Below, piece by piece: positions 1 to 19,299 of a DNA stretch of 34,607 bases. Where the stretch lies: the NCBI GenBank assembly GCA_004367505.1, contig SFCB01000126.1:1-34607 (forward strand). The letters are read 5' to 3'. The DNA is from Chloroflexi bacterium OHK40. GTDB taxonomy: Bacteria > Chloroflexota > Chloroflexia > Chloroflexales > Chloroflexaceae. The notes under the pieces were generated by a model. It was given only the letters and a program-made list of their open reading frames with translations, had not been told where the DNA came from and ran no database searches. Positions within the stretch are counted from its first letter, which is position 1. Every line of letters begins with the position of its first letter. Made by a program: the position numbers and the translations under genes.

Positions 1-24
1 CCACTCAGTGGCGGCCCGTGGCTG

Positions 25-15570: not shown

Positions 15571-16848
15571 ATGCGCCGCGTGCCCATCCTGCTTTGCGTC
15601 CTCGTCGGTGCGATGCTGCTGGCCCCGGCCGCCCCTGCGGTCGCTGCCCCGATAACGGGAGCGCCCGCCCCCTTCCTGGAGTCCGGCGGGTTTGTCGTTG
15701 CCGGCCCGTTCTACACCTTCACGATGGCCCACGGCGGTCTGGAGGCCCTCGGCCAGCCGATCACCGGCGAGCTACACGACGCCGAACTCGGTGTGCCGGT
15801 GCAGTACTTCACCTACGCCCGGCTGGAGCGCCATCTCGACGGCATACGGCTCACCCGCCTGGGCAGCCGCGCCGTGGCTGGTCGGGAGAGCGAGCCCGCC
15901 TTCCAGTGGCGCGGCCCTGACACAGCGCTGGAGGGTGGACGCCGCTACGTGCCCGAGTCCGGGCATACCCTGGGCGGGGCTTTCGGCTGGTACCATGCCC
16001 AGCACGGGGCGGTAGCGCTCCTCGGCCACCCGATCTCCGAGGAGTTCGCCGAACCCCGGCCCGGCGGCACACCGATCCTCGTCCAGTACTTCGAGCGGGC
16101 ACGGCTCGAATACGACCCGGAGGTTCATACGGTGCGCCGCGCGCCCCTCGGCGCATGGCTCGCCGCGCAACTCGTCCCTCCCGAGTTGCGCGCACCCGCT
16201 GGGACACCACAGCCCCTTGCCAGCGCCACACTCACCTACCGGCCCGGATTGGGGAGCAGCCACAACCTCGAGCTCGCGGCGGCGCGCCTGCACGGCGCCG
16301 TGGTCGAGCCAGGGCAGCAACTCGCTTTTCTTGGCTCCATCGGCCCGATCTCGGCGGCAGCCGGATACCGGCCAGGCCAGGCCGTGGTTGACGGCCAGAT
16401 AGTAGAGGGCGAAGTGGGCGGCGGGATCTGTAGCGTGGCGACGCTCCTCTACCGCGCGGCCTGGGTGGGCGGCCTGCCAGTAGTGGAGCGGCGCGGCCAC
16501 TCGCGCTGGCTAACGGCCTTCGCCGATGCGCCTGGCCTCGACGCCGCCGTCGCCTTGCCCGGCCCCGACCTGCGCATCCACAACGACACGGGTGCGCGGC
16601 TCTTCGTCGCTGCCGTGGCGGGCGGCGGGCGCGCTACCGTTACCCTCTGGGGCCTGCCCGACGGGCGCCGGGTGGAGCTCGCGCCTCCACTGATGGTGAC
16701 ACAGGGCGGTACGCTTACCGTGACCACCGCGCGCACGGTGCGCGGGGCCTCGGAGGCGCTGCAGCGCCTCGAGCGCGTCACGACGCGCTACCGGCTCGCC
16801 GGGCCATCTCCCGTTCGCATAACCCGGGTGGGGCGCCCAGGCTGGTGA
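15571..16848 (+). CDS. Secreted VanW family protein with N-terminal Chloroflexota-type repeats
   Basis: This is a 425-residue protein. ATG 15571 lies 10 nt after AAGGAG (15555-15560); a GTG at 15550 is in frame but overlaps that ribosome-binding site. The signal peptide is about residues 1-27 (VPILLCVLVGAMLLAPAAPAVAA). Two related repeats follow at ~39-90 (GPFYTFTMAHGGLEALGQPI, VQYFTYARLERH) and ~129-185 (GWYHAQHGAVALLGHPISEEF, VQYFERARLEYDPE). The VanW domain spans ~223-395 and shows its hallmark residues (SSHNLELAAARLHG, GEVGGGICSVATLLYRAA). VanW occurs in many envelope proteins of monoderms; its activity is not established. A beta-rich C-terminus ends the protein. The position after tadC may mean read-through from the tad operon. 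Confidence 0.88.
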   Translation: MRRVPILLCVLVGAMLLAPAAPAVAAPITGAPAPFLESGGFVVAGPFYTFTMAHGGLEALGQPITGELHDAELGVPVQYFTYARLERHLDGIRLTRLGSRAVAGRESEPAFQWRGPDTALEGGRRYVPESGHTLGGAFGWYHAQHGAVALLGHPISEEFAEPRPGGTPILVQYFERARLEYDPEVHTVRRAPLGAWLAAQLVPPELRAPAGTPQPLASATLTYRPGLGSSHNLELAAARLHGAVVEPGQQLAFLGSIGPISAAAGYRPGQAVVDGQIVEGEVGGGICSVATLLYRAAWVGGLPVVERRGHSRWLTAFADAPGLDAAVALPGPDLRIHNDTGARLFVAAVAGGGRATVTLWGLPDGRRVELAPPLMVTQGGTLTVTTARTVRGASEALQRLERVTTRYRLAGPSPVRITRVGRPGW

Positions 16849-17008
16849 GCAGCATCAGACAGGCCAGCCGAGCTCACTGAAACTACGATGCCTTGTCGGC
16901 ACCTCGGATGGACGCGGCGCGCTGCATTCCTCCGGGGTACGTCCCGACATCATGGCCTTCCGCAGCCCGCCGGGCCCGGCGCGTGCGACCAGACGATTAC
17001 GGTGACGC

Positions 17009-17434
17009 TCAGTCGCCACCCGCTTCGTCCAGCGCCCGCAGCGCATCAAGCTCGGGGCATAACACCACGCTCTCCTGCTCGTTCGGATCGGTACGAGCGA
17101 GCACCGCCACGGTCTCATCGGGGCCAGGGTTGTAGGGCAGGTGTGGGATGCCGGCGGGGATGTAGAGGTACTCGCCAGCCCGCACTTCCAGGTGCTGCTC
17201 CAGCCGCTCACCGTACCACATCCCGGCGCGACCGCTCAGCACATAAATCGCCGTCTCATGGGCCGCGTGCAGGTGTGCCCGCGCCCGCGCCCCCGGTGGC
17301 AGCCGCAGCATGTGCATGCAGATCCCCCGCGCGCCCACGCTCTCGGCCGAGATCCCGGCGGCGTACGTCAGTCCCTGCTTGCCAGCATAACTTCCCTCGC
17401 CCCGTACAACCTGGCACGTCGCCGCTTCGCCCAT
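17009..17434 (-). CDS. Cupin-domain protein
   Basis: This is a 141-residue single-domain cupin. The start at 17434 has AAGGAG 6-7 nt upstream on the - strand. Motif 1 is visible as ARAHLHAAHETAIYVLSGRAGMWYG, and motif 2 as GEYLYIPAGIPHLPYNP with the conserved PxxxPH. Three to four His/Glu residues are positioned to hold a metal. Small cupins of this kind include dioxygenases, isomerases and sugar-binding proteins, so no reaction is assigned. It is convergent with the VanW gene (160 nt apart, nothing clear in that gap) and divergent from the arsR-like gene. Confidence 0.82.
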   Translation of the reverse strand: MGEAATCQVVRGEGSYAGKQGLTYAAGISAESVGARGICMHMLRLPPGARARAHLHAAHETAIYVLSGRAGMWYGERLEQHLEVRAGEYLYIPAGIPHLPYNPGPDETVAVLARTDPNEQESVVLCPELDALRALDEAGGD

Positions 17435-17615
17435 GGCAGCTCTCCTTCCCAGCCTGGCGCGGGCCGCCCATCCCTCACCCGCAAGCCAGACGCTTGTCCA
17501 TCAAACTTCATGCCCCGTGGCGCCGAGTGTACCATCCCGGCGGCACACCGGAACACGAGGGCACAGGGCACAGGGAACGGGGGACGGCGGGCAGGCCGCC
17601 GCCAGCGGCCGAGGG

Positions 17616-17633
17616 AGCCCGCGCAGGCGGGCT
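17616..17633. repeat. Intergenic hairpin
   Basis: AGCCCGC (17616-17622) and GCGGGCT (17627-17633) form a perfect 7-bp stem around a 4-nt GCAG loop. There is no T-tract. It could be part of a REP-like dispersed repeat, since its surroundings are also repetitive. Confidence 0.45.
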
Positions 17634-17664
17634 TCGCCTCCTCATCGCCGCGCGCTTTAGTGCT

Positions 17665-17716
17665 ACGGCCCACGCCCGCCCTTCCGCGCCACGGCCCACG
17701 CCCGCCCTTCCGCGCC
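17665..17716. repeat. Exact 26-bp tandem duplication
   Basis: A 26-bp unit at 17665-17690 (beginning ACGGCCCACGCC) is repeated without change or spacer at 17691-17716. Two copies with no spacer rule out a CRISPR array. Identity points to a recent slippage or duplication event, or an assembly artefact. Confidence 0.9.
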
Positions 17717-17805
17717 TGGTGGAGCACTGTGCCCGCGCCCGCAAGCGGCTAAAGCCTCGCCTATGTGCAACCCGTTTCGTCACACCCGTGGTGGGATCAC
17801 CGGGC

Positions 17806-17834
17806 TTGACATTTCAACGCGCAGGAAGTATAGT
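17806..17834 (+). promoter_or_regulatory. Sigma-70-type promoter of the arsR-AHSA1 operon (leaderless)
   Basis: The -35 box TTGACA (17806-17811) is perfect, the spacer is 17 nt, and the -10 box is TATAGT (17829-17834). The expected transcription start about 7 nt downstream of the -10 box falls at 17841-17842, i.e. at the A of the ATG. The mRNA should therefore be leaderless or nearly so, and no Shine-Dalgarno sequence is present before the start codon. Confidence 0.8.
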
Positions 17835-17859
17835 TAGGCAGATGCCTAACTATACTTCC
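17824..17859. promoter_or_regulatory. Perfect 16-bp inverted-repeat operator over the arsR -10 box and start codon
   Basis: The left arm GGAAGTATAGTTAGGC (17824-17839) is the exact reverse complement of the right arm at 17844-17859, with AGAT between. The left arm covers the -10 box; the right arm encodes codons 2-6 of the repressor itself. Size and location fit an autoregulatory operator for the ArsR-family dimer: binding would block the promoter and the transcription start. Confidence 0.8.
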
Positions 17860-18177
17860 CAACTCGACACGGTATTCCAGGCCCTGGCCGACCCGACGCG
17901 GCGGGCGGTACTTGAGCGCCTGACGCGCGGCCCCGCCCCGGTGCGGGAGCTTGCCCAACCCTTCTCGATGGCCCTCCCGTCTTTCATGCAGCACCTGGAC
18001 GTGCTGGAAGCCAGCGGCCTCGTGCAATCCCGCAAACAGGGCCGCGTGCGCACCTGCTGGCTGGCACCGGAGCGGCTTGCGGAGGCGGAGCGCTGGCTGG
18101 CCATGCAGCGCGAACACTGGACACAGCGGCTCGATCAACTCGATCGATTCCTCACTGAGACAAAGGAGCAGTCATGA
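17842..18177 (+). CDS. ArsR-family winged-helix transcriptional regulator
   Basis: This is a 111-residue protein. The ATG at 17842 coincides with the predicted transcription start; the frame stays open far upstream but that part is intergenic. The N-terminus (QLDTVFQALADPTRRAVLERL) and the recognition region (PVRELAQPFSMALPSFMQHLDVLEASGLV) are typical ArsR winged-helix elements. No CxC metal-binding motif is present; the only Cys lies in VRTCWL, so metal sensing of the ArsR/SmtB type is unlikely. Pairing with an AHSA1/SRPBCC gene in an ATGA overlap (18174-18177) is a widespread arrangement. Probably autorepressed through the inverted repeat over its own promoter. Confidence 0.93.
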   Translation: MPNYTSQLDTVFQALADPTRRAVLERLTRGPAPVRELAQPFSMALPSFMQHLDVLEASGLVQSRKQGRVRTCWLAPERLAEAERWLAMQREHWTQRLDQLDRFLTETKEQS

Positions 18178-18668
18178 GGGAGCACGGCGGCTACCAGATC
18201 GACCCCCAGCGCGACCTGGTTCTTGAGCGCACGGTCGACGTTCCGCCCCACAAGGTATGGCAGGCCTGGACAGTCCCCGAGCAGCTCAAGCAGTGGTTTA
18301 CGCCCGCACCCTGGACGACGGTCGACTGCGAGATCGACCTGCGGCCCGGGGGTATCTTCCGCACCGTGATGCGCTCGCCAGAGGGGCAGGAAAACGAGGG
18401 CGTCGGCTGCTATCTCGACGTTGTCCCCAACCAGCGACTGATCTGGACGGGCGCATTGCTGCCGGGCTTCCGGCCGGCGCCTGTGGCGAATGGCGACCTC
18501 GTGTTTACGGCGATCATCCTGCTGGAGCCCCATGGCGAGGGAACGAAGTACACGGCGATCGTGATCCACCGCGACGCCGAGGACTGCGCGCAGCACACGG
18601 CAATGGGCTTCCACCAGGGCTGGGGCGCCGCGTTCGACCAACTCGTCGCCCTGGTGCAGCGCTCATAG
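18174..18668 (+). CDS. AHSA1-like SRPBCC domain protein
   Basis: This is a 164-residue protein overlapping the arsR-like stop by 4 nt. The fold is recognised from LVLERTVDVPPHKVWQAWTVPEQLKQWFTP at the N-terminus and from the C-terminal helix (GFHQGWGAAFDQLVALV). In between are DLRPGGIFRTVMRSPEG and LIWTGALLPGFRP. SRPBCC proteins have a hydrophobic cavity and bind small ligands; members encoded with ArsR regulators have no firmly known substrate. It is co-transcribed with the repressor and so expected to be made when that is released. It ends 121 nt before the convergent chrA pair; no clear terminator is seen in that gap. Confidence 0.9.
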   Translation: MREHGGYQIDPQRDLVLERTVDVPPHKVWQAWTVPEQLKQWFTPAPWTTVDCEIDLRPGGIFRTVMRSPEGQENEGVGCYLDVVPNQRLIWTGALLPGFRPAPVANGDLVFTAIILLEPHGEGTKYTAIVIHRDAEDCAQHTAMGFHQGWGAAFDQLVALVQRS

Positions 18669-18789
18669 CCTGACACCGGTGCGCAACGCGGCCGGCGTGC
18701 GTAGTGGGCGCTGGCACGGTCGCACCATCCTCCGGGGCCACGGGTCACAAGGGCATCGCCACACGCCCGCAACGCAGGCAGCCGCCTGG

Positions 18790-19299
18790 CTAGGGCACGA
18801 CCACGCCCGCAACCCCGGCCAGGCCAAGGAGCACGGGCACCGGAACCCGCTGGCTGAGGCTCAGCCCGATGCTTGCAAGCACTATCAGCAGGCTCCGCCC
18901 ATCAACGCCGGTCGTGAGCAGGAGTGTCACCATCACGATAAAGATATTCCCCGACACCGCCAGCCCGAGCCCACGCATAAACCCCTGCATCGCCGGGTGC
19001 GCGCCAACCCGGCGATGGAGTCGGGCAACGACGAGCACGAGCAGGGGCGGCAGGCTGATCGCGATCGCGGCCAGGACCGCGCCCCGCAGCCCATCAGTCA
19101 GGTAGCCCAGGGCGATCACCCACAGCCCGCTGGGGCCCGGGCTGATCTGACCGATCGCGAGGGCTTCGACAAACTGCTGGTCCCGCGCCCAGCCCCGCGC
19201 GAGCAGATCGGCGTGCAGGCTGGGGAGATTCCCCGTGCCACCGGTCGAGAAGAGCGAGGCCTTGAGGAGCAGCCAGAAGAAGACGAGCGGCTCGATCAT
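18790..19299 (-). CDS. chrA: ChrA-family transporter, second half-size subunit
   Basis: This is a 169-residue membrane protein with start ATG 19297-19299, overlapping the stop of the first half-size gene by 4 nt. It shows the ChrA pattern: FFWLLLKASLFSTGGTGNLP near the N-terminus, then ALAIGQISPGPSGLWVIALGY and GAVLAAIAISLPPLLVLVVA. About five to six hydrophobic segments follow. Half-size ChrA proteins work as pairs. Classic ChrA exports chromate; here the pair is the tail of an operon with a sugar-acid kinase and an aldolase, so a different organic anion as substrate is worth considering (inference). Confidence 0.85.
   Translation of the reverse strand: MIEPLVFFWLLLKASLFSTGGTGNLPSLHADLLARGWARDQQFVEALAIGQISPGPSGLWVIALGYLTDGLRGAVLAAIAISLPPLLVLVVARLHRRVGAHPAMQGFMRGLGLAVSGNIFIVMVTLLLTTGVDGRSLLIVLASIGLSLSQRVPVPVLLGLAGVAGVVVP

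Follow-up and report, generated by a model that had tools for sequence, protein, structure and literature searches.

The first codons of arsR appear to serve as one half of the operator that the encoded protein itself binds. We propose, with a probability of roughly 0.9, that the inverted repeat at the start of arsR in the window (the whole 34,607-nucleotide stretch of DNA analysed here) is the operator by which an ArsR-AHSA1 operon regulates itself. The regulator would repress its own leaderless gene, with its dimer lying over the -10 box, the transcription start and codons 1-4. This reading draws on the anatomy of the site, its conservation in relatives, the codon usage at the start of the gene and the match between operator bases and residues of the recognition helix.

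Promoter, inverted repeat and genes in the window

The inverted repeat reads GGAAGTATAGTTAGGCA-GA-TGCCTAACTATACTTCC, i.e. two arms of 17 nt with 100% complementarity and a 2-nt spacer, and its dyad axis lies exactly between -1 and +1, i.e. between the base before the ATG and the A of the arsR ATG (Table 1). It is the longest perfect one among the inverted repeats reported in the 34.6-kb window, the longer ones all being imperfect. The first-pass annotation of this DNA had described a perfect repeat over the -10 box and codons 2-6, which is confirmed, but the arms are 17 bp long and not 16 bp as it gave them. It had also read TTGACA-17-TATAGT as a promoter placing the predicted start at or next to the ATG, and we find the hexamers, the spacing and the ATG at 17842 as described. 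The promoter matches 11 of the 12 consensus bases and is the sole promoter-like site in 16800-18800 (shuffles gave a mean of 0.2). Because the ATG is 8 nt past the -10 box, +1 would fall at or beside its A. The operator motif has a single occurrence in the 6.9-Mb genome, with no further site found elsewhere when up to 3 mismatches were allowed.

Table 1. Features around the start of arsR, in window coordinates
Feature	Position	Strand	Remarks
Cupin-domain gene	17009-17434	minus	divergent, upstream of arsR
-35 hexamer TTGACA	17806..17811	+	
Left operator arm GGAAGTATAGTTAGGCA	17824..17840	.	
-10 hexamer TATAGT	17829..17834	+	within left operator arm
Conserved operator core, -12 to +12	17830..17853	.	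axis between 17841 and 17842
arsR, 111 aa, HTH_20/HTH_5	17842..18177	+	predicted leaderless
Right operator arm TGCCTAACTATACTTCC	17843..17859	.	encodes ATG bases 2-3 and codons 2-6
Recognition helix, residues 45-58	17974..18015	+	AlphaFold2, mean pLDDT 92
AHSA1/SRPBCC-domain gene	18174..18668	+	presumed same operon as arsR

The arsR product has an ArsR-type wHTH, with matches to HTH_20 (5.3e-11), HTH_5 (5.1e-6) and NF033788 (1.5e-20) that are all above the cut-off. The CmtR and BigR equivalog models are far under their cut-offs on this protein, and inspection of its sequence revealed no CxC-type metal-site motif. Membership in the SdpR family of autorepressors (NF033789) was considered and rejected at 53.9 bits, the cut-off being 100. 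The closest solved structure is PDB 3f6o, RHA00566 of Rhodococcus, which matches the window ArsR in fold (61% identity across 92 columns, TM 0.79/0.90) and whose entry title names no DNA complex, operator or function. The AHSA1 gene (PF08327, 7.5e-32) starts in a 4-nt overlap with the end of arsR (ATGA), and an AHSA1 relative lies downstream of arsR in 76 of the 78 protein-selected loci.

Conservation of the operator axis at the start codon

The start-codon-centred arrangement of the putative operator is conserved over several bacterial phyla. We took 80 relatives by protein similarity and further loci from genome searches, and picked their start codons blind to the operator; the loci were ranked by the full-length query protein including its N-terminus, which gives a mild bias toward similar first residues. 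Going by their record titles, the 80 relatives span Proteobacteria, Actinobacteria, Planctomycetes, Myxococcales, Nitrospira, Chloroflexi and others, and 73 of them keep an inverted repeat on the same start-codon axis, counted as at least 5 of 9 pairs. On the ATG axis, 79 relatives give a complementarity of 0.684 for k=4..12, versus 0.155-0.401 on the 20 neighbouring axes at shifts 1-10. The consensus is roughly TATA(G/C)TTAG(G/C)CAT to the left of the axis and ATG(C/G)CTAA(C/G)TAT to the right, and further operator classes among the relatives are TTAAG/CTTAA and TTAACC/GGTTAA. Among the 113 relatives with a start operator, the best -10 match starts at -13 in 82 relatives and at -14 in another 9; the leaderless transcript is predicted from this steady position together with the hexamer spacing in the window.

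Conservation stops at about 12 bp from the axis on either side, and the family does not keep the outer 5 bp of each arm. In the window the outer positions 17824-17828 and 17855-17859 pair perfectly, while the pairing there in the family is only 0.25-0.39. The perfect arm length of 17 in the window is the longest of all loci, followed by 13.

The two arms co-vary, although partially. At the pair +/-4 we counted 42 C.G and 28 G.C, i.e. 70 of 79 relatives paired versus 38.1 with permuted arms (0/2000 permutations), and the pair +/-9 is paired in 52 of the 79 relatives versus 34.4 expected. Of 39 contrasts that are independent on the tree, 10 show compensated changes in the right register, versus 0 of 156 in four wrong registers (Fisher p=3.7e-8). 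The left base changed without the right one in 26 of the 39. The alignment that the first-pass annotation had suggested, of codons 2-6 against the left arm, thus gives the co-variation it looked for, with incomplete compensation.

A second palindrome lies upstream in about half of the relatives (39 of 79 with at least 7 of 9 pairs). Its axis is mostly 33-36 bp upstream of the first, and the sequence is e.g. TTAGGTATTGACCTAA or TTAGC...GCTAA, over the -35 box. We observed this placement in L028, L039, L047, L055, L065, L048 and other loci; the window has no second copy over its -35 box. In many Lys50 relatives the -35 box is TTGCGC instead of TTGACC/TTGACA where the second operator covers it.

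Several loci vary the arrangement. The same genome encodes a paralogue, L002 (G000:C148, reverse strand), that is 51% identical to the window ArsR and has a start-centred operator of the TTAAG/CTTAA class; this difference in operator class would limit crosstalk. In L168 the palindrome GACACTTAGGCA-GA-TGCCTAAGTGTC, with the core and the GA centre of the window, lies upstream of the likely start. L010 (reverse strand) carries a relic ATGCTTAACTATTGA, consisting of four codons and then a stop, with a partial left arm, ahead of a downstream ATG, as if the start codon had moved and the operator had been left behind in the leader. In a more distant ArsR-AHSA1 subfamily (the DQLSxTFAALADPTRR proteins; L107, L109, L110, L115, L118 and L121) the gene is leadered, and another conserved palindrome, about CTAACTAGCTAATTAG, is seen between the -10 box and the ATG.

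Operator bases follow the recognition helix

Residue 50, within the helix that the AlphaFold2 model identifies as the recognition helix, has the highest mutual information with bases -5 and -4 of all protein columns. Gln50 goes with G(-4)/C(+4) and Lys50 with C(-4)/G(+4), and 111 of 112 loci agree at -4, a count that is mostly shared ancestry since residue 50 has switched independently few times (4). All 4 independent contrasts go in the same direction; on well-supported branches only, there are 2 usable residue-50 pairs, too few to reach significance. Base -5, which is G or A, goes with the presence or absence of Phe at residue 48 (the pairs at 47-48 being in practice Ser-Phe and Ala-Val). 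The two agree in 104 of 110 loci, and of the 8 independent contrasts 4 go the same way, 4 show no change and 0 go the opposite way. The window fits both rules: Ser47, Phe48 and Gln50 (Gln50 codon 17989-17991) match the operator bases +/-5 and +/-4, with G at -5 and G at -4 as the code predicts.

The same code reaches into the protein because +4 is the first base of codon 2, so that residue 50 all but predicts residue 2. Of the 46 proteins with Gln50, 43 have Pro or Leu as residue 2, and the 55 with Lys50 all have Glu, Ala, Asp, Val or Gly there. Gln50 with Ser47-Phe48 demands GG/CC at -5,-4/+4,+5 and hence CCT (Pro) as codon 2, while the Lys50 relatives would need G at +4, giving one of their five residues.

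It is improbable that the palindrome acts mainly in RNA, by a hairpin in a read-through transcript that hides the start codon. Such folding is feasible in principle, as RNA containing the left arm forms a perfect hairpin (-33 kcal/mol, z -6.7) and a transcript starting at the ATG has none (z 0.0). But G.U makes up 5.2% of the non-Watson-Crick cells versus 10.1 +/- 0.7% in shuffles, a rarity more in line with a site read as DNA than with an RNA stem. The arms are imperfect in most relatives, and an RNA hairpin does not explain why base -4 tracks a residue of the recognition helix. In the window, the neighbour just upstream of arsR is divergent, and the closest ORF of gene size that runs in the direction of arsR ends near 16848. 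In the loci where arsR does lie right behind another gene (L144, L147, L148, L151 and L176), the start is ATGCTGCACGAT and the palindrome is absent. We thus find no support for a conserved function of an RNA hairpin, the second layer of control that the first-pass annotation had seen in the folding of read-through mRNA.

We regard it as highly improbable that the repeat is the site of some other regulator, or is kept only as a promoter element, with ArsR acting elsewhere. The conservation at -12 to -8 is indeed partly due to the -10 box, but conservation runs on into codons 2-4 at synonymous positions, the operator tracks the protein's own recognition helix in all but one of the loci compared at -4, and a footprinted relative, Rv2034, binds a half-site of the predicted class.

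Codon usage at the start of arsR

Codon usage indicates that codons 2-4, and hence residues 2-4, are under selection mainly as operator DNA. In the 80 unconditioned loci, GC3 is 0.09, 0.91 and 0.04 at codons 2, 3 and 4 and 0.50 at codon 5, the mean over the gene being about 0.78; where the start operator is missing, relatives have 0.59, 0.59 and 0.44 at codons 2, 3 and 4. Codons ending in A or T number 73 versus 22.2 expected at codon 2 and 77 versus 27.5 at codon 4, and only 7 versus 27.7 at codon 3, with a mild excess at codons 5 and 6 (40 versus 17.8 and 38 versus 20.2). The choice among synonymous codons in the operator loci is nearly fixed when compared with the rest of the same genes: Pro2 is CCT in 27 of 27 (8% of Pro codons elsewhere), Leu2 is CTT in 16 of 16 (10%), Ala2 is GCT in 14 of 15 (7%), Tyr4 is TAT in 40 of 40 (36%) and Gln4 is CAA in 35 of 36 (27%).

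GC3 alternates over codons 2-4 in step with the operator sequence, unlike what a general A/T bias after start codons would give. That such a general preference for A/T-ending codons after bacterial starts made the pattern, with the residues kept for protein function, is scarcely credible: codons 5 and 6 are likewise mildly enriched, but the strongly GC-ending codon 3 lies between two A/T-ending ones, the operator-less relatives lack the pattern, the chemistry of residue 2 switches with residue 50, and the model is least confident close to the N-terminus (mean pLDDT 68 over residues 1-10). The conservation, the constraint on codons 2-4, the co-variation of the arms and the match of -4 with residue 50 together support the earlier suggestion of a leaderless start with an operator that uses coding sequence.

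Comparison with known systems

A close likeness is Rv2034 of Mycobacterium tuberculosis, an ArsR autorepressor in the operon Rv2034-Rv2036 with an SRPBCC/polyketide_cyc2 partner, which was not released by the metals tested (PMC3338718). Its DNase I footprint extends from -30 to +3 and covers CCGTAAGTCTAAACTTACGG adjoining the start codon, and its palindrome CCGTAAGT-N4-ACTTACGG is just upstream of the GTG start (PMC3338718). Both systems combine an ArsR and an SRPBCC-type partner in one operon with a palindromic operator at the gene start. In the Rv2034 orthologues, however, the operator ends a few bases before the start and leaves the codons outside, whereas in the window the right arm is coding and the axis lies between -1 and +1; the embedding in the start codon is thus the feature that differs.

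The orthologues were searched with a sequence that we take to be Rv2034, and the mycobacterial ones found have 74-75% identity to it. They carry Ala47, Val48 and Gln50. Counted from the axis of their operator, base -5 is A and base -4 is G, as predicted by the code, which comes from a separate subfamily. The DNA upstream of one of them, L207, is near-identical to the published Rv2034 upstream region (GTAAGCCTAGACTTACGGTTCGTG versus GTAAGTCTAAACTTACGGTTCGTG), which supports its identification as an Rv2034 orthologue. The exact published operator had no match in 198 genomes of the genus of the close orthologue, so the link to Rv2034 rests on the orthologues and the near-identical upstream DNA.

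Brucella ArsR6 is an ArsR-type regulator with binding and footprinting on its own promoter, as we propose for the window; it is likened here by regulator type and not by orthology, and the portion of the text searched mentions no palindrome, AHSA1 partner or start-codon operator (PMC8509827). For the LacI family, a recognition code was drawn from local regulation, with recognition residues matched to operator bases by comparative genomics (PMC2978694). The ArsR case differs from it in that one half-site is also protein-coding, so that the code reaches residue 2. Our literature search, which covered few subscription journals, found nothing on a start-codon operator in ArsR, a leaderless ArsR or an ArsR recognition code.

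Proposed mechanism and implications

From the anatomy, the conservation, the codon constraint and the covariation that can be read in the DNA, we infer the start of transcription, the binding, the repression and the release. Transcription would most likely start at the A of the ATG and yield a leaderless mRNA. An ArsR homodimer would bind the palindrome and occupy -12 to +12, with the recognition helix (45-58) of each monomer reading one TTAGG/CCTAA half-site; of the two half-sites, one lies in the -10 region and its partner within codons 2-4. From there ArsR would cover codons 1-4 together with +1 and the -10 box, blocking RNA polymerase at its own promoter, and the AHSA1 gene would be co-repressed with arsR until some signal releases ArsR. 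AHSA1/SRPBCC domains generally bind small hydrophobic molecules, and our guess is that the releasing ligand is related to the AHSA1 partner gene.

Autorepressors with operators in their promoters are already common, and leaderless autoregulators such as lambda cI from PRM and Tn1721 TetR have mRNAs from the AUG and operators in the promoter. What sets the present case apart is that the axis stays on the start codon from phylum to phylum and that the coding half follows the recognition helix. The first residues of ArsR appear to be set largely by what ArsR itself must bind. This explains why residues 2-4 look conserved (e.g. MPNY, MPNQ, MEQY, MANY, MLNQ) where the predicted fold is least confident. 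We lean towards the broader view that regulators of a widespread class owe part of their own amino-acid sequence to their DNA specificity: with the axis fixed at the start codon, residue 50 and base -4 would determine codon 2, and the protein, the promoter arm and the first codons would co-evolve as a three-way code across phyla.

One stretch of DNA under protein-coding, promoter and binding-site selection together makes a clean natural case. The simple code, residue 50 with base +/-4 and residues 47-48 with base +/-5, predicts operators for many uncharacterised ArsR-AHSA1 regulators, and annotated start sites can be checked with it, as the operator axis should fall on the start codon.
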